DNA of 51,810 nt from Nitrospirota bacterium (GTDB lineage Bacteria > Nitrospirota > Thermodesulfovibrionia > Thermodesulfovibrionales > UBA6898): positions 1-51,810 of the forward strand of contig JACRLO010000005.1 in assembly GCA_016235245.1 (NCBI GenBank), written 5' to 3'. Position numbers and translations under genes: made by a program. Below are positions 20,613-40,986 of the stretch, one piece after another. Positions within the stretch are counted from its first letter, which is position 1; every line of letters begins with the position of its first letter. The notes beneath the pieces are model-generated. The model searched no databases, was not told the origin of the DNA, and saw only the letters and a program-made list of their open reading frames with translations.

Positions 20613-21634
20613 ATCTTTTGTCTCCGCACGATACGCAGCACTTCCTGATAGACAGCTTCAGGCGAAATATCTTTCATGCACTGCATATGGCCGCAATCCC
20701 TGTTGAAGCAGGGCACGCATTCCAACGGTGACTGAAGAACAAGATGACCGCTGCCATATGGCCCTGTCCTGGCCGGACTTGTCGGTCCGAAGATGGCGAC
20801 AACCGGGACGCTGAGCGCAGCCGCAATATGCATCGGACCCGAGTCGTTTGTAATGACCACTTCTGCTGTCCGCATAATCTCTACCAGCTGTCTGAGGCTT
20901 GTCTGCCCGGCCACAGAGCGGGCCTTGCCGTCAGAGTGCAGCACCACGTTATCAGCAATCTCCTTGTCTGCACTGCCCCCCACGACTACCGATCTCATAG
21001 GGAGCATTGAGGCGACTGCACCGAAGCTCTCTGCCGGCCATATCTTGGTCTTCCACCTTGCGCCCGGCACCAAAACAGCATAAGGGCCGGGGTCTGAGAG
21101 CGCTCCCTCCCTATTGCCTGTGCTGTCGGAAAGGGGAAAGGGGAAGGCTATATCAGGAGTCCCGCAGCCAAGTTCCGCAGCGACTTTCATATAACGATCA
21201 ACGGCATGAATATCCCTGCCGCCCCTGACGTTCTTTGTATAAAAATACCTGCTGCCCTCGCGTGCCTCAAGAAAACCGATCCTCAACGGTGCATGCGTTG
21301 CCCATGTGATCAACCCGCTTCGAAACAGTCCCTGAAGATCGATCACCAAGTCATACTTTTCCTGTCTGAGCTGTTTGAAAAGTTCCCTGATCTCTTTCAG
21401 GGTGCTGCCGGCCCGCGAAAGCTTCTTCCAGCGATCCTTATTGATAATGATCAGCTTATCGATCATGGGGTGGCCCTCAAGCAGACCTTCAAGGCCCCTG
21501 GCGATCACCCAGTGAATCTCAGCCTGAGGAAGGCATTGTTTCATGGCGTTCAGAAACGGCAGGCTGTGCACCACATCCCCGAGAGAGCTCGGCTTTACTA
21601 TCAGTATCTTCCTGCAGTCCCCCCTCTTAGACAT
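20609..21634 (-). CDS. waaC: GT9 ADP-heptose glycosyltransferase, WaaC-like
   Basis: A 341-residue glycosyltransferase family 9 protein acting at the cytoplasmic face of the inner membrane on the LPS inner core. The N-terminal nucleotide-sugar fold begins ILIVKPSSLGDVVHSLPFLN. The acceptor-side block DLVIDLQGLFRSGLITWATH and the C-terminal donor motif VVITNDSGPMHIAAALSVPV are typical. A Cys cluster (CVPCFNRDCGHMQCM) follows. The start at ATG 21634, after GGGAAGG, overlaps the previous gene by eight bases; an earlier ATG would overlap by 77. The heptosyltransferase I label is inferred from motif flavour and pairing with a WaaF-like enzyme. Confidence 0.8.
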   Translation of the reverse strand: MSKRGDCRKILIVKPSSLGDVVHSLPFLNAMKQCLPQAEIHWVIARGLEGLLEGHPMIDKLIIINKDRWKKLSRAGSTLKEIRELFKQLRQEKYDLVIDLQGLFRSGLITWATHAPLRIGFLEAREGSRYFYTKNVRGGRDIHAVDRYMKVAAELGCGTPDIAFPFPLSDSTGNREGALSDPGPYAVLVPGARWKTKIWPAESFGAVASMLPMRSVVVGGSADKEIADNVVLHSDGKARSVAGQTSLRQLVEIMRTAEVVITNDSGPMHIAAALSVPVVAIFGPTSPARTGPYGSGHLVLQSPLECVPCFNRDCGHMQCMKDISPEAVYQEVLRIVRRQKI

Positions 21635-23192
21635 CAGCCTTCCCGTGCATGGATAATATGGTCCTGACCGCCTCAGCAAGTCCCTCAACAACGGCATCTG
21701 CATGAGACGACGACTCTGCCTTGCCGGTCTTCACCAATATTGCTTTTGCTCCTGCGGCCTTCGCCAAACGCATGTCAACATCCTTATCCCCGACCACAAA
21801 TGAGCGTTTGAGGTCTATGCCGTGATCGTTCCGTGCCTGAATCAGCATAGCGGGCTCAGGTTTTCTGCAGGCGCAATGCTCATCAGGGTGGTGCGGACAG
21901 TAATAGAACGCGTCAAACCCGTATTGGCCCAAAAATATCCGGTTCACCTCTTTTACCACACTCTCCGGCACTAAGCCCCTTGCGATCCCGGACTGGTTTG
22001 AAACACCGATAAGGCTGATGCCACGATCTCTCAGTGCAGAAAGAGCCGTTATTTCGGAAAAGATCTCCAGATCTTCCATCCTGCTCAGATAATGGACATC
22101 CCGGCAGAGAGTGCCATCACGATCAAAAAAAACCGCACTCTTTCTGAGAGTCAGTTTTTTCACGGCAGCATACACCTCGTCTGAGGTGATAAGGTCCATG
22201 CAGGCCAAATTGTTCTTCCTGCACTGCCGCTCAAAACAGGGCGCACATTCGACACTCTTCCTGATTACGACGTCCGATGTGCCGACCGGCCCGGTATGTT
22301 CCGGAGAGGTCGAGCCGAAGACCGCAACCAGCGGCGTGCCGACCGCATACCCGATATGCATGGGACCGGAATCGTTCGTTACCAATACATCAGATTCTGC
22401 TATTAATGCCATCAACTGTCGAAGAGAGGTAATGCCTGCCACATTCAGCAGGGACGATTGCGTTACAAGAGACGGGTCGAGATGTTTCAGAATATCCTCG
22501 GCAATCCCTGCTTCCTTTGGGCCGCCGAGAAGAAGAACGCTGCCGCTCAGTTCCGTTATCACCCTGCCCGCCACTTCTGCAAACCGCTGAGGCAGCCATC
22601 TCTTTGATGATCCGTAGGCTGCCCCCGGATTCAGGGCTATGACCGGCCTTTTCAGTCCTTCGATCATGCTCCTTGCCCCTAACCGCTCCTCAAGATCCAG
22701 AAACAGCCATGGCCGGTCAGGGCTGCCGTTGAATCCGGCCTTCTGTACCAGATTGAGATAATAATCAATATGATGGAGTGCTTTTGCCTGGGCATCGAAT
22801 GCAACGGGATCGGTCAGGAGAAGGCCTCTTCCGTCCCTGCGGTAGCCGATACGTTTATTGATCCCGGCAAGAAAGGTTATCAGGGCAGCGTCAAAAGCGT
22901 TCTGAAGGAGCACGGCAGCAGCAAAACCATACTCTTTCAATTTCCGGGCGAGCCTGACCTTGCCTCCCAATCCCTTATATTCGTCCGCGTAGAGTATGAT
23001 CTCATCAATATCGGGGTCCTTCTCAAAAAGAGGGGCTACCCAGGGCTTGACCAGGAGGCAGAGCCGTGCGTCCGGAAGAGTTCGCCTCAATGCCCTCATC
23101 GCAGGGATGGTCATAACTGCATCCCCGATCCAGTTAACACCCCTGAGCAGGACTGCGTTGTTTTTTTCGGTCTGTATTTTTTGCTTGTCCAT
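21627..23192 (-). CDS. waaF: WaaF-GmhB fusion: heptosyltransferase II plus heptose-bisphosphate phosphatase
   Basis: A 521-residue two-domain protein. Residues 1 to about 345 form a GT9 heptosyltransferase: start NNAVLLRGVNWIGDAVMTIP, NPGAAYGSSKRWLPQRFAEV, the donor motif VLVTNDSGPMHIGYAVGTPL, and Cys cluster CAPCFERQCRKNNLACM. Residues 350-521 form a HAD-IIIA phosphatase of the GmhB type: AVFFDRDGTLC with the two catalytic Asp residues, GVSNQSGIARG, the zinc-ligand loop CPHHPDEHCACRKP and GDKDVDMRLAKAAG. GmhB removes the 7-phosphate of glycero-manno-heptose bisphosphate on the way to ADP-heptose. The fusion couples precursor synthesis and use. ATG 23192 is chosen over a TTG six codons earlier. 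Confidence 0.9.
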   Translation of the reverse strand: MDKQKIQTEKNNAVLLRGVNWIGDAVMTIPAMRALRRTLPDARLCLLVKPWVAPLFEKDPDIDEIILYADEYKGLGGKVRLARKLKEYGFAAAVLLQNAFDAALITFLAGINKRIGYRRDGRGLLLTDPVAFDAQAKALHHIDYYLNLVQKAGFNGSPDRPWLFLDLEERLGARSMIEGLKRPVIALNPGAAYGSSKRWLPQRFAEVAGRVITELSGSVLLLGGPKEAGIAEDILKHLDPSLVTQSSLLNVAGITSLRQLMALIAESDVLVTNDSGPMHIGYAVGTPLVAVFGSTSPEHTGPVGTSDVVIRKSVECAPCFERQCRKNNLACMDLITSDEVYAAVKKLTLRKSAVFFDRDGTLCRDVHYLSRMEDLEIFSEITALSALRDRGISLIGVSNQSGIARGLVPESVVKEVNRIFLGQYGFDAFYYCPHHPDEHCACRKPEPAMLIQARNDHGIDLKRSFVVGDKDVDMRLAKAAGAKAILVKTGKAESSSHADAVVEGLAEAVRTILSMHGKADV

Positions 23193-23297
23193 AAAAGCCA
23201 GTATCCTCAATTATCCGGAACGTTCTGGTTCCGCATACACGAATGTATGAAAAAACTGATCTTATGATACTATAATTTTGAGACTGGATACATTGCC

Positions 23298-28574: not shown

Positions 28575-29741
28575 ATGCGTTATTATTTATCGCCCCATGT
28601 CTGTCTGAAGTGGCTTGAAACGCCCTCAGTGTACCATTTGAGAACTGACGAACTTTACGAGCTTGATGAGGGTTCATTCGATTTTCTTACGAAATGCTCT
28701 GCTGCAGATGGATGCCTGCCTGCGGGACAGGAATTCGTCGATTATTGCGCTAAAGAAGGGATATTGGTACCCGATCGCGCTGCAATTCAGCGGCCGCCTG
28801 TTATGAGATCTCCTGAACCGTCTCTACGCTATCTTGAACTCCAGATCACAGACAGTTGCAACCTGAAGTGTAAGCATTGTTATATTGATCCCCCCTCTGC
28901 GATAGAATCAGACAAGAAGACGTTTCATGAACTTTCTGCAGATCAGATACGGACTATTCTTCGTGAGTTTGAAGCACTCCAGGGGCTTCGGGTCATGATA
29001 ACCGGCGGCGAACCCCTGCTTCATAAGGATTTTGAGGCAATCAATCATATGCTGCCCGATTTCCTGCTACGCAAGGTGCTCTTCTCCAATGGGCTCCTCC
29101 TGAACCGTCGAGTCCTGAAAAATCTGCATGTTGATGAAATTCAGATCAGCATCGACGGGCTTCAACGGGCGCATGATGCCTTACGGGGAACGGGCACCTT
29201 TACCCGGTCTATGGAGAGCATTCGTCTTTGCCTTGAGATGGGCTTTGAGGTCTCGGTATCGACCATGGTCCATACCGGCAATCTCAATGATTTCGACACC
29301 ATGGAAAAGACGTTCAGAAAACTGGGAATCAGGGACTGGACCGTTGACGTGCCCTGCATTTCCGGAAGACTTGCGGACAATGCAAAATTCCAGGTCACAC
29401 CGGAAACAGGCGGCAGATACCTGAAATACGGATTTGGCGAAGGACTTCATGGCAGCGGTGAAGGATTCGGATGCGGTCTTCACCTGATGTCGGTCATGGC
29501 CGACGGGAAAATGGCAAAATGCTCCTTTTATGCAGACAGGTCTGTCGGCACAATTCATGAGGGGCTCAGTGCATGCTGGCAGAAAATATCCCCTGTCAGG
29601 CTGGGCGACCTAAGCTGCGATTGTGCATATGTCGCTGCGTGCAGGGGAGGCTGCAGATTCCGCGCAGAAGTCCTCGGCAATGCGCAGGGAAAAGACCTTT
29701 ACCGGTGTAAACTCTATGATATAATGAAGAAAGAAAAGTGA
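28575..29741 (+). CDS. Radical SAM/SPASM peptide maturase
   Basis: A 388-residue enzyme. Residues 1-65 look like a PqqD/RRE-type peptide-recognition domain (VYHLRTDELYELDEGSFDFL). The radical SAM core starts near residue 90 with the cluster motif CNLKCKHC and ITGGEPLLH near 142, and includes the SIDGLQRAHDALRGTG strand. The C-terminal SPASM region has cysteines at GFGCGLHL, MAKCSF, LSCDCAYVAACRGGC and YRCKLYD, room for two auxiliary 4Fe-4S clusters. The first pair is CxC rather than the usual CxxC. A 20-residue Cys-rich peptide gene follows 42 bases downstream, the expected substrate. The GGAG before ATG 28575 is only one base away and TATAAT ends six bases before it, so the mRNA may be leaderless. 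Confidence 0.88.
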   Translation: MRYYLSPHVCLKWLETPSVYHLRTDELYELDEGSFDFLTKCSAADGCLPAGQEFVDYCAKEGILVPDRAAIQRPPVMRSPEPSLRYLELQITDSCNLKCKHCYIDPPSAIESDKKTFHELSADQIRTILREFEALQGLRVMITGGEPLLHKDFEAINHMLPDFLLRKVLFSNGLLLNRRVLKNLHVDEIQISIDGLQRAHDALRGTGTFTRSMESIRLCLEMGFEVSVSTMVHTGNLNDFDTMEKTFRKLGIRDWTVDVPCISGRLADNAKFQVTPETGGRYLKYGFGEGLHGSGEGFGCGLHLMSVMADGKMAKCSFYADRSVGTIHEGLSACWQKISPVRLGDLSCDCAYVAACRGGCRFRAEVLGNAQGKDLYRCKLYDIMKKEK

Positions 29742-29783
29742 CAGGGCACGAAGCCCAATCTTTGCACAAAGGAGGTGTGAAGC

Positions 29784-29846
29784 ATGACGATCAAGAAGGT
29801 CTCGAAGAAGGCAGCAACAACCTGTAAGTGCAAGAGTTCCTGCTAA
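29784..29846 (+). CDS. 20-residue Cys-rich peptide, candidate RiPP precursor
   Basis: The frame encodes MTIKKVSKKAATTCKCKSSC. AAGGAGGTG ends just upstream, leaving eight bases from GGAGG to ATG, the strongest ribosome-binding site in the neighbourhood and hard to explain by chance. The peptide divides into a Lys-rich leader-like half and a TTCKCKSSC core with three cysteines. It directly follows a radical SAM/SPASM maturase with an apparent recognition domain, the classic arrangement for thioether-crosslinked (sactipeptide/ranthipeptide-like) products. A 20-pair hairpin closes the unit. Too short for ordinary gene finders. No protease or exporter gene is adjacent. Confidence 0.78.
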   Translation: MTIKKVSKKAATTCKCKSSC

Positions 29847-29866
29847 TCAGGGCTCAACATATGAAT

Positions 29867-29910
29867 GGATACAAAGGGGGCAGACTTCTTAGTCTGCCCC
29901 CTTTGTATCC
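29867..29910. terminator. Perfect 20-pair hairpin after the peptide gene
   Basis: Arms 29867-29886 and 29891-29910 are perfectly complementary over 20 bases with loop TCTT. It starts 20 bases after the peptide stop and lies 40 bases from the end of the convergent superoxide dismutase gene. There is no T-run beyond a CTTTG near the stem end. It probably terminates or stabilises both converging transcripts. Confidence 0.7.
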
Positions 29911-32166: not shown

Positions 32167-35100
32167 TCATCGGGCCGCACCTACCAGCCCGATAACAACA
32201 TCTCCTCCGGTGCTATAAATCTTTATTTCACCGGTATATTCCCCTACTGCCTTCGGACTGAACCTGATCCCCAAAGTACAGCTGCCTCCGGAAGGCAAAG
32301 GCAACAGAGTGCTGCAAGTTCCACCAGACAAACTGAATGGTGAGCTGGGAGGCGTAATCGACGTAATACTCAGGTCAGCCCCCCCTCCATTAGAAATGGT
32401 AGCGGTCGCTGAGGTCATCTTGCCTTCCGACGTGACTCCCATATCAACAGTCTTCGGCGCAATGAGCAGCGAGCTGGGCCTCGTCGGCAGTATATCAGGC
32501 ACCTGGACAAACTGTTCGTTTCCAAGGCTGTCGTAATAGATTAAATATCCCGTGCCCGAGGCCTCATCGTAAATAAAGGTAATATCTGCTCTGCCGGCAT
32601 TGCTTATGGCCAGCCAAGGGTTAGAAAGCAGACTGATCTTCTCGCGATTCACGAGTGCATGCGTAATTGCATCCAGAATCTCGATATAGATCACATAAGA
32701 GTTTGCCGCCGGATCCAGCACCGTATAGGCCGTTATAAGCCAAAGATCATTCTGGCGGTAATAACTGTTTCTGGCCATCTGGCCCGTTTCCGTAAAGGTC
32801 TTTGTCACAACACCTTCGTCGTTTCCAGCATTGTCTAAAGAGTAAAAACGCAGAACATCCGTGGACGTAATTCTGATCGGAACACCGGTATATTCCGTTG
32901 TCGGAGTACAGCCGATCCCCACGCAATAATAGGTTTTATCACAGCCGGTCTCAAAATCAGCACAGGTAAGTGTCACAAATACCGATGACACAAACTGCCC
33001 GTCTGAAGGAGCAGGCGTAGTTACCGGGTCGGTTTCGTCCTCAATAAATGTAGCGTTCACCGATATGTCTCCGTTAACTATTATAATACATTCAGCCACA
33101 CCAGAACAGCCGCCTCCAGACCAACCGGAGAAGATAGATAATGCATCAGGCACCGCGGTCAGGGTCATCGTCGTTTCCGGCATGAAAGTCTCTTCGCAGT
33201 CTGCGCCGCAGTCTATCCCTGTCCCTGTCGGAACACTGGTAACGATACCTGTTCCGTTTCCATCTATGGTAACAAGCAGCCGGTAGTGGATCGTAGTGTT
33301 TTCAGCGACCGTATTATTGGCAGTATCAGCATCGTTGGTATCAGACAGCACAACGGCAGTATTGCTGATTACGCCGCTTACCATGGGGGCGGTAATGTTC
33401 ACAAGTACTGTTGCAGTGTTGCCTGCAACCAGATTCCCAACAAGGCAACTGACCTTTCCGCCCACGACACTGCATAACGCGTCTGACCCTGAAGGCTCAA
33501 ACGATGTCCCCTCCGGAAGGGTATCCTCCAAGACGATACCGGTTGCGTTGTCCGGCCCGTTATTCGTCACCGTGTAGGTATATGTGATGACATGGCCCAC
33601 AACAGCGGGGTCAGGGCTATCGGACACAGTAACCGAAAGGTCTGCGTTACCGATTGCACCACCCGGCTTTGAACGCACACAGCGGACGCTGAGGAGTTGG
33701 TCCTTGGCACGGGTTATCACATCACCGTTGATGAACGATACACCCCAGGCATAGGCATATGGTGGGACCAATTCTGCGGTACCAACACTGGTTGAAGAAC
33801 TCCAGTATACACCATGACTCACTGCCGTAAAGAAGTCCGAATCTGTTGCCGGAGGGATGCTGCTGTCAACCGTGATAGATTCCAATTCCTTGACGTCAGG
33901 CAGCCGCCAGTCATTAACCGTTGAATCCGGAAATTCGAGGTTATCACAATATATCAGCGCATCCACCCAGTTTCTTGTTGTTGTTTCTCCCTGCAGCCAT
34001 ATAAGGCCGGTGGCCTTGTCCGTGATTGTCCCATCTCCATTGTCTTGCAGATCAGGATACATCAGGGTCTTTCCGCGCACGCAGCGAGTCAGCGCTGTCG
34101 TATCGACGTCATGGCCGTCTGCATGCCCCATGAAGAAATCGAGGTTCCATGCCATTGCCGTCCCGGCCTGATATTCCGTATCGGTCCAGTAGGGAGCAGA
34201 ATTTACTGCAAGGAATGAGGCAGTAAGCGCCGGATTATAGGTGCCGAAATCAACGATACTCAAAAGTTCCTTCTTGCTCGGCAGACGCCAGTCAGGATAG
34301 AAGCCGCCAGGATATAGCCCCAGGGATAACCCTTCACAATATGCCCTGGCCTCTGCCCTTGTCCTTAAAACATTGTCATCAATCTTCTGCCACATCAAAT
34401 GGGTATTGCTGTCCGTCAGTGTGCCGTCGCCATTGTCGGCAAAAGAGATCGGGTTAATCACAGAGGCTGCGTCTTCACCTGGGATAAGCGGATCGGTATA
34501 GAATATGAGCTGACCGGAATCAGGGAACTTTATCTCACAGGCATCACCAATGAGATCCCCATCCGTATCCGTCTGTTTCGAGTTAGAGACCAGCGGGCAG
34601 TTGTCCACGCCGTTTAATACACCGTCATTATCCTTATCCGGGTCACAGGCATCACCCAGTCCGTCGCCATCCGTATCGAGCTGGTCCGGATTCACGATTA
34701 GCGGGCAGTTGTCCACCCCGTTTAATACGCCATCTTCGTCCTTGTCCGGATCGCAGGCATCACCCAGTCCGTCGCCATCCGTATCGAGCTGATCAGCATT
34801 GCTCACCAGAGGACAATTATCTAAGGTATCCGGAACCAGATCGCCGTCATCATCTGAATCAATCTGCGTGGACACAGCGGACGAATTGTTGATCGTATAA
34901 TCATCATTTGTGATGGAGTTGACCATAACGATATTATTGATAAGCCCTGGCGTTGCCGGTGACAGAATAATAAGGCTGATGACAACCTCACTGCCGCTTG
35001 CCAGCGATCCGATGGCACAGGTTACATTGCCAGCTAGATCAACGCAGGTCGCGCCGGCAGCTGATACAAAGGCAGTTCCGGCAGGCAGCGTTTCGGACAG

Positions 35101-38100
35101 TATCACCGCTTCGGCGTCAAACGGGCCATTATTAAGAACTGTCGCAGTATAGGTTACAGGAGTATTTACAATTACCGGCGCTGCGGGACCAGTCGGGCCG
35201 GTAAGACTGACGGCAAGATCAGACTCTCCCAGCGACCCTGCTCGTCCACCCCTGACGCACCTGACAAGATAGGGGGTAAGCTTTGTCACAGCAGCAACAC
35301 TCCCCGCATCGAAATTAACTGCCCAGGCGCTTTCTTCCAGCCCCTGTTTTGTGGTTGAAGTCCAGTATCTTGCGCTGTCCGTGCCCACAAATATCGCGGG
35401 GGACGGAGCCTCCGGCTTATATATGGCAGGATTCGTCGTATCCTGGGCAGTCATTGACTGAAGTTCCTTTACGTTCGGAAGCCGCCAATGATCCACCGCT
35501 GGAGATGCCGGCGTCGAGAGATTTTCACAATAGTCAATGGCCGCTTCCCATGTCCGCGGAGTATCATCATCAGACTGCTGCCATACCAGACCGGTAGAGG
35601 CATCAGAGACCGTCCCGTCATTGTTGTCGGTATAATCGCCATAGGTGATTACACTTTCCCGTACGCAGCGAATCCTCCTCGGGCTGATCTTAGCGTAGAT
35701 GTTTACCGCACCGTCGTTAAAATCAATTCCCCATGCATCACCGCTACCAGTGCTGAAGGTGTCATCGGACCAGTAAATCACCGGTTCCGTCTCCAGGAAA
35801 TACTGCCCGTCAATGGCAGGAGCATATTTACCGAAATCAACAATACCCATAAGCTCCTTGACCGAAGGCATACGCCAGTTGCCCACAAAACCGCCAAGCA
35901 TCAGCGTTGAGCAGTAGGTGCCTGCATCGTCCCACACGTAAGAGATATCGTTATCTCTTGCCTGCCACATAAGATGCGTGTTCCGGTCTGTTACGGTACC
36001 GTCTCCATTGTCGATAAACGACGGGGGGTTTATCGTATAGTCAGCGTCCTCTCCAATGGTATTTGTAAAGTGAGACGTCTGACCGGTATCAGAGAGTCTG
36101 ATCTCGCAGACGTCTCGAATCCCATCGCCATCCGTATCGGTCTGATCTTGGTTCGGCACTGAGGGGCAGTTGTCAATGTTGTCCGCAATACCATCACCAT
36201 CCCTGTCAGGATCGCAGGCATCACCGATGTCATCCCCATCGCTGTCAGCCTGTCCCGGATTCCAGACAAAAGGACAATTGTCACTGACATCAGGGATACC
36301 GTCCTGGTCCGAATCAAGGATAAAGGTGGCTGTCACCGTAATATCTGCATTAATCAAAACCGAGCATACTCCAGTCCCTGAGCACCCGCCTCCTGACCAT
36401 CCTTCAAAAATCGACCCGATACTCGGTACCGCGGTAAGAACAACCTCAGGCGGACCGATTGGATACAGCTCACTATAATCGTTAATTGCGGTATCTATTC
36501 CGGAAGGAGAGCTCGTTACAGTCCCCGAGCCGGTTCCCTTCAGGGAGGCAGTAAGTGTCTGTTGGGCTTTTCCAACAACCGTGCTGAGAGAAACCGTATT
36601 ATTCGATGCGTCACCATCATGCGTCGATCCGGTAACCACGGCGCTGTTTATTATCGTCGCCGGTGCTGACGGAGCGGTAATAACTATCGTAACCAGGACA
36701 TCCTCACCTGATGAAATTGTCCCGATTTCACACGTCACGGTACCTGCAGAAGGACTGCAGCCGCTCCCTCCGGTCCAGTTTCCTGATACCAATGTACCGG
36801 CAGAATACGTATCGGTCAGAACGACATCATGTGCTTCAAACGGTCCGTTATTGGATACCGTTATCGAGTAGGTAATATCGGTATTCTCCACTGCCGGGTC
36901 CGGCGAATCAGTTGCCGCAACCTTCAGGAGAGAGAGCTCTGCTTCGCCCATTGATCCCGATCTTCCGCCGCGTATGCACCGGATGCTCTTCAGAGCGCTC
37001 TTGAGGGCATATGACGTGCTGCCGCTGACAAAATCAGTATACCAGGCATTATCAACATATTCTGAACTGGTCGTTGACGACCAGTATCCAGTCGAATTTA
37101 CTCCAAAGAACAGGCTATTGTCGACGGCTGAAGTATTGGTATCCGAAGGGAGATTATCATCGGCAATCGTCTCCAATTCACGGATATTTGGGGCTCTCCA
37201 GTCACTGTAACCGGCAAGAGATCCCAGGTTCTCGCAATAGGAGATGGCTTCCTCCCACGTTCTGGATGTTGCCGGTGTCTGTTGCCACACAAGACCGGTA
37301 GACCTGTCCTCAATAGTACCATTTCCATTGTCGAGAAAATCACCATAGGCGATCCGCGCAGACCTGACACACAACGTCCTGTATTTCCCTGACTTTAACG
37401 TAAAATTGGCCTGGCCACTGCCGAAATTCACAGCCCATGCATTTGTCTGACCACCTGCATATGAGGTGGAAGTCCAGTAGTTCAGCGTATTCATCCCGGG
37501 GAAAATGGTCTTGTTAACCGCCGGGTTCTTAAATTGATAATCCACAATGCTCAAGAGTTCTTTCTTTGTCGGCAGCTTCCAGTCTGAATGTCCTCCAAGA
37601 CCAAGACTGCCACAGACGTCAAGTTTTGCATTCGGATTGAACGCGTCAGAGATACCTGCAGCCTCATACCAGTTATAGTTGGTATCATCGTCCACCCGCT
37701 GCCACATGAGGTAGGTATTGAGGTCAGTTACGGTGCCGTTGCCATTATCTATCAGTGTAGGAGGGAAAATCAGGTAATCGGAATCATCCCCTGTCACGGA
37801 TGCGTAATGGGTAGTCTGGCCTGTATCAGGCAGCCTCAGTTCACAGGCATCCCCTATGCCGTCGTCATCCGTATCAACCTGGTCGGTGTTAGGGACATTC
37901 GGACAGTTATCAACGGAATCCCATATCAGGTCATTATCGAGATCGGTATCATACGCAAAAATAGCAGTCACTGTTGTATTTGCATTGATCAATACCGCAC
38001 ACGTATCGCCCCGCGGATTGCCGATGCTGTTACATCCACCTCCTGACCATCCAACAAATCTGGACTTGGTTGCATCCGGAGGGGTTTCTGTCGGCCAGTT

Positions 38101-40986
38101 AGGCGTTGCAGTAAGGATTACGGTTTCGCCAAAGGCATATATGTCAAAACAGGCATCCTGCTGGTCTCCCGGACAGTTAATCAAATTTCCATCGTTGTCG
38201 ATGCCGTCATGGTCTGCCGTAACCTGTCCCGGCACATCTCCCAGAACTTCAACCGTCAGGACAGCTTCACGCCCTCCCCTGACGCAGCGGACATAGTTGT
38301 CTTCAGTCTTGTAATACGGATAAGAGTAGCCGTAACCAAAATAGATTCCCCATGCAGTCGTCTTGTCAGCAACATCAGTTGTGGACGACCAGAATTTGGA
38401 AGTATCATTGTCGTCAAGGAAGCCGCGGAAGACCGTCGTATCGCGGGTATCAATCGCCGGGCTGTGCATATCAAGGCTCGTAATAGATGCAAGCTCCTTT
38501 ATATTCGGGAGTCTCCAGTCTGAGCGGGGCGCTGTCCCTCCGGCCATATTCATGTCAACTTTTGATATGTTTTCTGTTACCGTGCTGACCACCGCAAAGG
38601 TGTTCGGACCGATCCCTGTAAGCGGAGCGGCACTGATCGTCACGGTCGGTCCGATAGATGATGCCGTATACTCGGGGGTAGAGTTATAGGCATTGATATT
38701 GGCTGCGACATCAGTGGCTAACTGCTGGAGATTCGTCGTAAAAGCCACAGGCGCACCGGTATCCATGACCTGAACTCCATTCACGGTAATACCGGTCACC
38801 GAACCAGTCGAGCCGGTCACAAAACGGACCGATCCCGTTGCCACGGTCTGACTTAAGGTAAGGTCCTCGCAATAGGTTGTTGCAGCACTCCAGCTCATTG
38901 GTCCCGAGAAACCTCTTTGCCATAAAAGGTTAGTCCCTTTGTCATGTACCCAGTCATCTGACGTATCACCGGAAGTGCCATTGTCAGACATTGCATACTC
39001 ATTAAAATGCAGGTTTTTCCCCCTCACGCATTTCACATACGATGGACTTGACTTACCAACCGGGAGAAATGTTCCGGTAGAGAAGTTCACATTCCATGCA
39101 ATATCAGAAGAAACGGCAAAGGCATCAATTGTCCAGTAATCGGTCTTTGTCGACGGAAATACGACGGTGTCAATCGCCATCTGGTCAGCACGCTCAGCAT
39201 GATCCAGCAGCGTAACGAGTTCCTTCATGGAAGGGAGTCTCCAGTCCGTATGTTCGCCCAGAGTAAGGCTGCCACAAACATTCACAACACCTCCGGGATT
39301 GTCATGCTGATCGGCAGTTGCAGTGCCGCTCGCCTGGTTCCAGGTATAGGTCTGAGTACCGGTCATCTGCTGCCACATAAGTCCGGTGACATTGTCATTC
39401 ACGGTGCCGTCGCTTTGAACGGTGAACGAGGGAGATTTGATCTCATAACTTCCGTCCTGGGCCAGCAAACTACCGCTTGCAGGACAATAAATTGATCCGC
39501 CGGCAGCGTCGTAGCAGATGATCTGGCCGGTATCAGGGAGATCAACCTGACACGCATCACCCCTGCCGTCATGATCAGAATCCAGTTGGTCAGGATTGTA
39601 CACCGTTGGACAATTATCCTGTAAATCGGCAACACCGTCACTGTCAGCATCCCCGTCACAGGCATCACCTATACCGTTGCCGTCGGCGTCTGCCTGGTCA
39701 GGATTACTGACATTTGGACAGTTATCGTCACAGTTAATAGTATTGCCTGCGGTGCATTTATGGTCTCCGGGGGTGCCGCTCAGATCACCGTCATCTCCAA
39801 TGCCGTCGCTGTCGGTGTCCTGCCCAAAAATCGCATTAACAACAAGGTTTGAAGTCATTACAACCGTGCATGTTTGAGATGAACCGCTGCAGGCGCCTGA
39901 CCACCTGATAAAGGTAGAAACAATATCATTCGGCGAGGCCTCAAGGGTGATCGTATCGTTTTTGGTATAGACCTCAGAACAGGTGCCAGTGCACTCGATC
40001 GCAGGACCGGACGGCGTCACCGCTGTTGAACGTATCGTTCCGCTCCCTGTGCCGAGTTTGTTCACTTCCAGGGTGAAGTCGTCATCAACAATCATAACCG
40101 TAGCAGTATCGGTGAAGACCAGTGCATTTGATGAACTGAAGTGAACCGTGAATGTTTCATCACCTTCAGCCTCATGGTCATTCCTGATCGGTATTCTGAT
40201 TTCAGTCGAGGGAGTAAACGGAGGGATGGAACCGTTCAATTGAGTCCCGGATGTGCCGCTGATTGTATAATCATCAGTTGCTCCGCTGACACTACCGGTG
40301 GCAGTACCGTCTTGCGTATAATAAGTGAAATATACGGTCTCGTTAGTTTCCTTGCTTAAGGATATCGTCAGTACGGCTTCAAGAGAGTTTTCATTGACCG
40401 AAACATTTGCAACGCTCAGGATTGGCCTCTTCTTTAATCCATATTCCTCACCGGTGAGAGGATCGTTGCCTTTCCTGCCTGTCAGTTTGATCCAGCCAAG
40501 GTTTTCAGACCATACCGCGCCGGTAAATTTTTCGATATTTTCACCGCCAAGGGCAGGCACATTATATTTCGCCTTAACAACGTCCAGACATGGCTCCGAA
40601 CCACACGTAGGATTGAATTTAATCCATCCCGCCAGTTCGCTCCAGCCATAGCCGGAGAGATAGCCGGTCGCCAGATCGACATTGACGCCCCAGTTAGTCC
40701 CATTCGTATTCAGATAATAAGGAGATGACGCTCCGACATAATCCTTCGCCCCAAGCTCTATCCAGCCAATATTTTCAGCCCAGATATAACCGGTCAGATA
40801 GCCGGTGCTGCTGTCAACAATCTGCATGCCTTCAGCAGCATTCAGCCAGCCAGCTGTCTCGGACCATGCATAGCCGCTGACGTTTGTCCCGGGAAGTGGC
40901 GCCGCAAAAGCGGCCACCGGAAGCAGAAAAAGCAACATCACGGCTTTTATGAATAAACTCTTATAGCTGGCTCCAGCTGTTTTCAT
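32167..40986 (-). CDS. 2939-residue exported repeat protein with eight DUF1566 domains
   Basis: Signal peptide [20 protein letters not shown]. In order: four SExxGWI-type repeats (residues 36-175); Calx-beta-like domain (about 190-305); an InlB-like bacterial repeat ending VVNAIFGQD; thrombospondin type 3 calcium repeats ([28 protein letters not shown]); then four super-repeats of about 550 residues. Each super-repeat carries two DUF1566 (Lcl C-terminal) domains, with the DWRLP-type motif near residues 582, 823, 1135, 1262, 1703, 1833, 2232 and 2359. They are separated by DUF11-like beta domains (three copies), InlB-like repeats and further type 3 repeats. The C-terminus has a chitobiase-C-like segment, the shared unnamed module (about 2738-2830) and a choice-of-anchor-D Ig domain. 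Ribosome-binding site AAGGAG. Predicted calcium-binding surface or adhesion protein. Confidence 0.85.
34593..34815 (-). repeat. 108-base tandem repeat encoding type 3 calcium motifs
   Basis: The segment GCGGGCAGTTGTCCAC recurs at 34593 and 34701, and the following CAGGCATCACCCAGTCCGTC at 34646 and 34754, a period of exactly 108 bases (36 codons). The copies are nearly identical in DNA, much closer than the other type 3 repeats in the gene, which points to recent duplication. This region is prone to unequal recombination. Confidence 0.8.
40461..40880 (-). repeat. Four WSExxGWI peptide repeats at the N-terminus of the 2939-residue protein
   Basis: The encoded protein repeats [33 protein letters not shown] and [11 protein letters not shown] with a spacing of about 27 to 50 residues, directly after the signal peptide. 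Short aromatic motifs of this type appear in exported proteins of several environmental phyla; no function is known to me. Confidence 0.7.

Follow-up and report, generated by a model that had tools for sequence, protein, structure and literature searches.

We report here that a radical SAM/SPASM enzyme of a Nitrospirota bacterium and a 20-residue, cysteine-rich peptide encoded directly downstream of it are very likely an enzyme-substrate pair. The pair was found in a stretch of 51,810 nucleotides, here called the window, which is contig 5 of a 3.25 Mb genome. The explanation that we favour, and to which we assign a probability of about 0.6, is that the two genes belong to a RiPP system in which one maturase serves two types of peptide, named CKCK and CKCH after their cores, and in which the products bind soft metals, copper in the case of the CKCH type. 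The system suggests that many Nitrospirota possess a family of modified metal-handling peptides that has so far gone unreported.

The peptide gene and its surroundings

The initial annotation had described a compact locus in which the gene of a 388-residue enzyme with the motif CNLKCKHC is followed after 42 bases by a 20-codon ORF with a ribosome-binding site and a 20-pair hairpin. The enzyme gene and its motif, the distance of 42 bases between its stop codon and the peptide start codon, and the coordinates, site and stem of the small ORF were all reproduced (Table 1).

Table 1. Features of the maturase-peptide locus (window coordinates)
Feature	Position	Strand	Evidence
Cys-rich protein gene, 124 aa	28166-28540	-	upstream, divergent from the enzyme gene
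Radical SAM/SPASM peptide maturase, 388 aa	28575..29741	+	ORF, Pfam Radical_SAM, orthologues, predicted structure
N-terminal domain, RRE-like (predicted PqqD-like fold), residues ~1-65	28575..28769	+	predicted structure and superposition
CNLKCKHC, radical SAM [4Fe-4S] cluster motif	28857..28880	+	C95, C99, C102
SPASM region, seven cysteines C300 to C378	29472..29708	+	conservation in homologues
Ribosome-binding site of the peptide gene, AAAGGAGG	29768..29775	+	sequence; similar sites in relatives
Peptide gene, CKCK type, MTIKKVSKKAATTCKCKSSC	29784..29846	+	pN/pS, relatives, genome counts
Stem-loop 3' of the peptide gene, between convergent genes	29867-29910	.	20-bp stem, fold z -8.7

The 20-codon peptide gene is confirmed as real and as being under strong purifying selection. 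Among 71 loci that were chosen by their homologous enzyme, the peptide having no part in the choice, 45 contain a 20-codon CKCK ORF no further than 260 nt from the stop codon of the enzyme gene. The differences among the peptide genes are mostly synonymous: pN/pS is 0.21 over the whole ORF and 0.045 in codons 13-20, and within the genus the latter codons show no amino-acid change at a pS of 0.43. A conserved mini-ORF near homologues of the enzyme and a bias towards synonymous change, both of which were looked for following the initial annotation, are thus present. We listed 101 distinct CKCK relatives, nearly all of which are preceded by a ribosome-binding site; their length of 19-20 aa has to be read in the light of the script, which preferred a 20-aa start wherever one was available. 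Peptides of the CKCK type and of the CKCH type described below are 19-20 aa long, have a basic N-terminal half, contain no hydrophobic stretch, and do not carry the Sec signal peptide that characterises bufferins and oxazolins.

As had been anticipated, the peptide is missed by annotation. The window peptide has no match in Pfam, three CKCK and two CKCH peptides gave no match in NCBIfam at E 10, and no open-access paper was found on the peptide, on the string CKCKSSC, or on a SPASM system of this kind in Nitrospirota/Thermodesulfovibrio or among copper metallophores; one paper mentions Nitrospirota, radical SAM and RiPP together (PMC9902471). The peptide genes are too short for routine annotation, and the family is therefore invisible in the databases searched.

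Downstream of the peptide gene, the hairpin has a 20-bp stem without mismatches, closed by a 4-nt loop (-40.3 kcal/mol). It is absent from the terminator scan because it lacks a strong T tail, and it is probably the end of the transcript. Behind it, in convergent orientation, lie a superoxide-dismutase-like gene (named from its sequence) and then a nitroreductase gene. On the minus strand upstream, the Cys-rich gene is accompanied by a ferritin-like gene and a 2-oxoacid:ferredoxin oxidoreductase. The Cys-rich protein, which contains the motifs CASYCAFYKPG, CRTCPFFEHDC and CGGFNCLGNC and has no match in Pfam or NCBIfam, also adjoins the enzyme in families f1 and f25 and in parts of f2 and f11. 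All three of these upstream genes were rejected as parts of the system, being retained only in some families. No protease or exporter adjoins the enzyme and peptide genes in the window, as the initial annotation had stated.

Other features were noted in passing. Judged by sequence alone, a 527-aa ORF of the window (21627-23210, minus strand) may encode a fusion of a heptosyltransferase with a HAD-type (GmhB-like) phosphatase, and a 2939-aa protein (32167-40986, minus strand) looks secreted and has many D-rich repeats resembling calcium-binding ones. In genome G010, a contig (L250, G010:C26:3000-7880) carries tandem CKCK copies, each of them preceded by a piece of the enzyme's C-terminal SPASM part; these pieces are open frames of 73 and 81 aa, the second of which ends at the contig end. 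At another locus (L184:4237-4299, G062:C228), a degenerate second copy, VKIEKIIKKMATTCKCEVSC, has no stop codon and is possibly a decaying duplicate.

Domain organization and predicted structure of the enzyme

The enzyme matches Pfam Radical_SAM (PF04055) at 2.9e-21, and the three cysteines of its CxxxCxxC motif are invariant in 62 homologues. In the same 62 homologues the cysteines C300, C316, C348, C350, C356, C360 and C378 are invariant or nearly so; they make up the set of seven that in SPASM maturases serves two auxiliary clusters, and the SPASM-type cysteine set that had been assigned to the enzyme holds. The spacing is C-x-C at a place where the usual motif is CxxC, and the Pfam SPASM model gives weak matches to only two of the 62 family members. 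No NCBIfam model claims the enzyme.

The proposal of a PqqD-like N-terminus stands by structure comparison only; in Pfam, the N-terminus of the enzyme family has no PqqD match. In the AlphaFold model of the enzyme (mean pLDDT 93), the N-terminal domain is predicted to be rich in strands (residues 3-5, 9-13, 17-21 and 26-29), with helices at 32-41 and 52-60. A Foldseek search with this model returned SkfB, CteB and SuiB as top matches. VIA-align superposed the enzyme on SkfB (PDB 6efn) with a Z of 25.8 and an rmsd of 5.0 over 328 residues, and on SuiB with a Z of 25.7 and an rmsd of 4.1 over 354 residues, and the superposition spans the N-terminal domain, since it begins at chain residue 12 of SkfB and at residue 1 of SuiB. 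It has been reported that residues 12-105 of SkfB contain an RRE (PMC6231123). The predicted fold, together with the superposition on SkfB and SuiB through the N-terminal domain, supports the presence of an RRE in the enzyme. SkfB is also its best sequence-profile match (3.9e-24). Close behind SkfB, SuiB and CteB in the structure list ranks anSME, whose chemistry is the conversion of Cys to formylglycine, and the likeness in fold therefore cannot fix the chemistry. When enzyme and peptide were modelled by AlphaFold as one read-through chain, the peptide was not placed (pLDDT ~25), and this docking aid was set aside as uninformative.

Co-occurrence of enzyme and peptide in Nitrospirota

Orthologues of the enzyme are present in 118 of 395 genomes of the Nitrospirota, the relatives of the window genome, and a pattern of CKCKxSC followed by a stop codon was found in 117, the reversed control pattern being found in 0. 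Both are present together in 111 genomes (p 4e-81, a value that is not corrected for kinship), and the link between enzyme and substrate, which had been proposed from the window, is well supported. This ties an encoded precursor to a candidate modifying enzyme, one of the features that mark RiPPs. In three families in a mixed state the two go together as well, with both against neither in 3 and 10 genomes (f3), 2 and 8 (f4), and 2 and 3 (f9); in the large family f29, neither was matched in the phylum scans. Beyond the phylum, the one clear relative returned by a contig scan was named as a Nitrospirae MAG, the other matches being distant radical SAM proteins; with the short single-sequence patterns used, this is no proof of absence elsewhere.

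The compactness of the locus is a feature of the window and of many families, but not a general one: in f10, f7, f6 and f2 and in part of f5 and f11, the peptide gene is remote from the enzyme gene or lies on a different contig, and genes of the CKCH type lie in copper-efflux loci. In f10 and several other families (loci L169-L177 and others), the CKCK gene is directly followed by a TPR gene, the enzyme often being elsewhere. The TPR gene was rejected as a partner. The order TPR-ispE-prs-rplY-pth occurs at many loci and in other families the peptide gene has no TPR gene next to it, and so the adjacency probably reflects synteny.

Several exceptions to the co-occurrence can be traced. Among the seven genomes with the enzyme only, three (G063, G327 and G111) carry a CKCH peptide instead of a CKCK one, the contig of G006 stops 87 nt past the enzyme, and the enzyme match of G130 is truncated by the contig end; in G097 and G135 (65% complete), which have the enzyme, no peptide was found. 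Six genomes have the peptide pattern only. One of these matches, CKCKSCC in G352, was rejected as a chance match, and in G010 the enzyme is present as fragments, of which one is truncated at the contig end. In the other four (G039, G305, G320 and G398), which keep a CKCK peptide, the search for an orthologous enzyme gave no more than distant radical SAM proteins. Gaps in the assemblies may account for some of the genomes with a peptide and no enzyme, namely these four and G037, which has CKCH genes.

A second peptide type in copper loci

The enzyme-only exceptions led the search on to the second type of peptide. The peptides of G063, G327 and G111 have the same build with a His in place of the second Lys, ending in CKCHSSC or CKCHQSC; an example of the CKCH type is MSIKKVTKKKALSCKCHQSC. 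A more general search pattern, which starts as M-x-[IVM]-x-K-hydrophobic and has C14, C16 and C20 ahead of the stop codon, matched in 104 genomes; it is blind to the 19-aa form of f10. The CKCH type occurs at loci of its own in 28 genomes, in one of them with a Tyr replacing the His. Although none of these positions had been set by the pattern, K15 and S19 are invariant in the 30 CKCH-type genes and H17 is conserved in 29. The full enzyme is present in 26 of the 28 genomes (p 6e-13), the other two being G010, with its enzyme fragments, and G037, with two CKCH genes and no orthologue.

The surroundings of the two types differ sharply. A P-type ATPase gene lies within 4 kb at 20 of the 28 CKCH loci and at 0 of 63 CKCK loci, and a gene for a Met-rich protein (Met content of 8% or more), in most cases with a signal-like start, comes next at 17 of 28 and 0 of 63 loci, respectively. 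The ATPases have a CPC or CPH membrane motif, marks of the copper-class P1B ATPases, and many also have YHS and heavy-metal-binding domains. YHS-oxidoreductase, HMA-like, SHOCT, YtkA-like and ArsR-type genes were also seen near the CKCH genes, and no metal genes near the CKCK genes. On this evidence a role in copper handling is probable for the CKCH type; a role in metal handling for the CKCK type is rated somewhat below even odds.

Some of these loci deserve mention on their own account. At L303 (G383:C205), two CKCH genes encoding identical peptides are separated by 1.8 kb, a gene for a Met-rich protein follows each of them, and a CKCK gene is present on another contig. The two CKCH peptides of G037, a genome that is 93% complete, are encoded in a copper locus (L297, G037:C89). 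The variant with Tyr for His, MIIVKIQRNHGVSCKCYNSC, is followed by genes for a Met-rich protein and a CPH ATPase (L316, G057:C37).

Two rival explanations also bear on the copper context. The peptide could be a mini-metallothionein, whose plain cysteines, with the His in the CKCH type, bind metal, the enzyme co-occurring for another reason such as another protein target of a shared lifestyle. The motif C-K-C-[KH]-x-S-C does resemble a thiolate site, the context of the CKCH type would fit, and four CKCK genomes and one CKCH genome lack the enzyme. However, the peptide adjoins an RRE-SPASM maturase in many families and co-occurs with the maturase elsewhere, and the conserved N-terminal half is free of Cys and common to both types, as expected of a leader. 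We therefore consider an unmodified metallothionein improbable. Alternatively, translation of a short Cys-rich ORF could sense copper (or cysteine) and so control the next gene in cis. The CKCH ORF indeed precedes the gene of the Met-rich protein by 28-172 nt on the same strand at the 17 loci mentioned. On the other hand, the window peptide is followed by the hairpin and a convergent gene, the gene behind the CKCK ORF varies between families, and control in cis would give no account of the co-occurrence with an unlinked enzyme, nor of an amino-acid sequence that stays constant while its codons vary. These points make it very improbable.

Possible roles of the product

No protease, oxidase, dehydrogenase, exporter or immunity gene recurs beside the CKCK and enzyme genes across families, which bears on two further explanations. 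Firstly, the peptide could be a scaffold that is crosslinked by the enzyme and trimmed by others to a small redox cofactor, as PqqA is to PQQ or MftA to mycofactocin. Its invariance across the phylum, its mostly single copy per genome, its PqqA-like size and the lack of export genes would all suit such a precursor, but the recurring protease, oxidase or dehydrogenase partner is missing and the CKCH sister in copper loci would be left without account. We regard this as unlikely. Secondly, SkfB and SuiB, which are among the nearest structures, mature a killing factor and streptide, and this brings to mind a secreted product of the sactipeptide kind, either a bacteriocin or a signalling peptide. 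That the product is a weapon or signal is nevertheless hardly credible, given a core that, unlike those of weapons or signals, is near-invariant across the phylum, the want of a recurring exporter, immunity gene or protease, and the copper context of the CKCH type.

Returning to the modified, metal-binding peptide that we favour, its production could proceed as follows. The N-terminal recognition domain of the enzyme would bind M-x-I-[KR]-K-[VI]-x-[KR]-K, the first half of the peptide, after which the radical SAM/SPASM core would modify T-C-K-C-[KH]-x-S-C, the core at its C-terminus. The initial annotation had suggested thioether crosslinks or metal binding by the three cysteines. The most likely modification would indeed be a thioether formed by at least one of these invariant residues, and we put its chances at a little short of even. 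Both peptide types would probably be served by one maturase. The product, short and without a signal peptide, would probably be an intracellular ligand or carrier of soft metals of the Cu(I) class. The CKCH product would work with the copper-efflux ATPase encoded beside its gene, and the CKCK product would be the more general housekeeping form. Taken to its full extent, the proposal is that radical SAM chemistry produces a class of metal-handling RiPPs throughout the phylum, in which one maturase acts on a housekeeping CKCK peptide and, in some genomes, on CKCH peptides encoded in copper-efflux loci, giving a modified Cu(I) mini-chaperone or buffer; this full version we hold to be somewhat less likely than not.

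If this holds, radical chemistry acting on a very short RiPP precursor provides bacteria with an intracellular metal ligand that belongs to conserved physiology and is not a variable weapon. The clean co-occurrence and the copper context make the system directly testable with two genes.

Comparison with known systems

Like the window enzyme, SkfB, the sactisynthase of the sporulation killing factor, combines an RRE, a radical SAM core and an auxiliary-cluster domain. Its precursor SkfA has 55 aa and yields a killing factor, whereas the peptide described here has 20 near-invariant residues and no export or immunity genes. The auxiliary domain of SkfB is a Twitch domain and not a full SPASM domain (PMC6231123), whereas the window enzyme has the SPASM cysteine set. 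The order of RRE, radical SAM and SPASM domains is the same in the peptide maturases SuiB and CteB, with which the enzyme shares an identity of ~16-21% and whose precursors, SuiA and CteA, differ. The modelled likeness to CteB and SkfB and the conserved cysteines are what would link the system to the sactipeptides and ranthipeptides, with their Cys thioethers.

The geopeptide maturases (TIGR04280) are likewise radical SAM/SPASM enzymes for a short peptide. The window enzyme was rejected as a member, scoring 33 bits against a cut-off of 400; a true geopeptide maturase (542 bits) is encoded elsewhere in the window genome (L001, G000:C19:78335-79633).

The precursors of PQQ and mycofactocin, with PqqE and MftC, offer another parallel: a short conserved precursor, a SPASM enzyme and, probably, an intracellular housekeeping role. 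PqqE requires a separate PqqD (PMC8326336), whereas in the window enzyme a PqqD-like domain appears to be fused, and no further pathway genes recur.

With regard to copper, bufferins, oxazolins and methanobactins are copper-linked, Cys-containing modified peptides made by MNIO enzymes (PMC12452194). Bufferins and oxazolins have Sec signal peptides, whereas here a radical SAM enzyme is paired with a 20-aa peptide that has none, and no MNIO enzyme was found among the annotated neighbour genes. By analogy, the system would work like the RRE-bearing SPASM maturases. The context of its CKCH genes also gives it some likeness to copper RiPPs such as bufferins, from which it differs in the class of its enzyme, in the lack of a signal peptide and in having genes that are sometimes unlinked. 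If so, it would be the radical-SAM counterpart of the MNIO-made bufferins and methanobactins.
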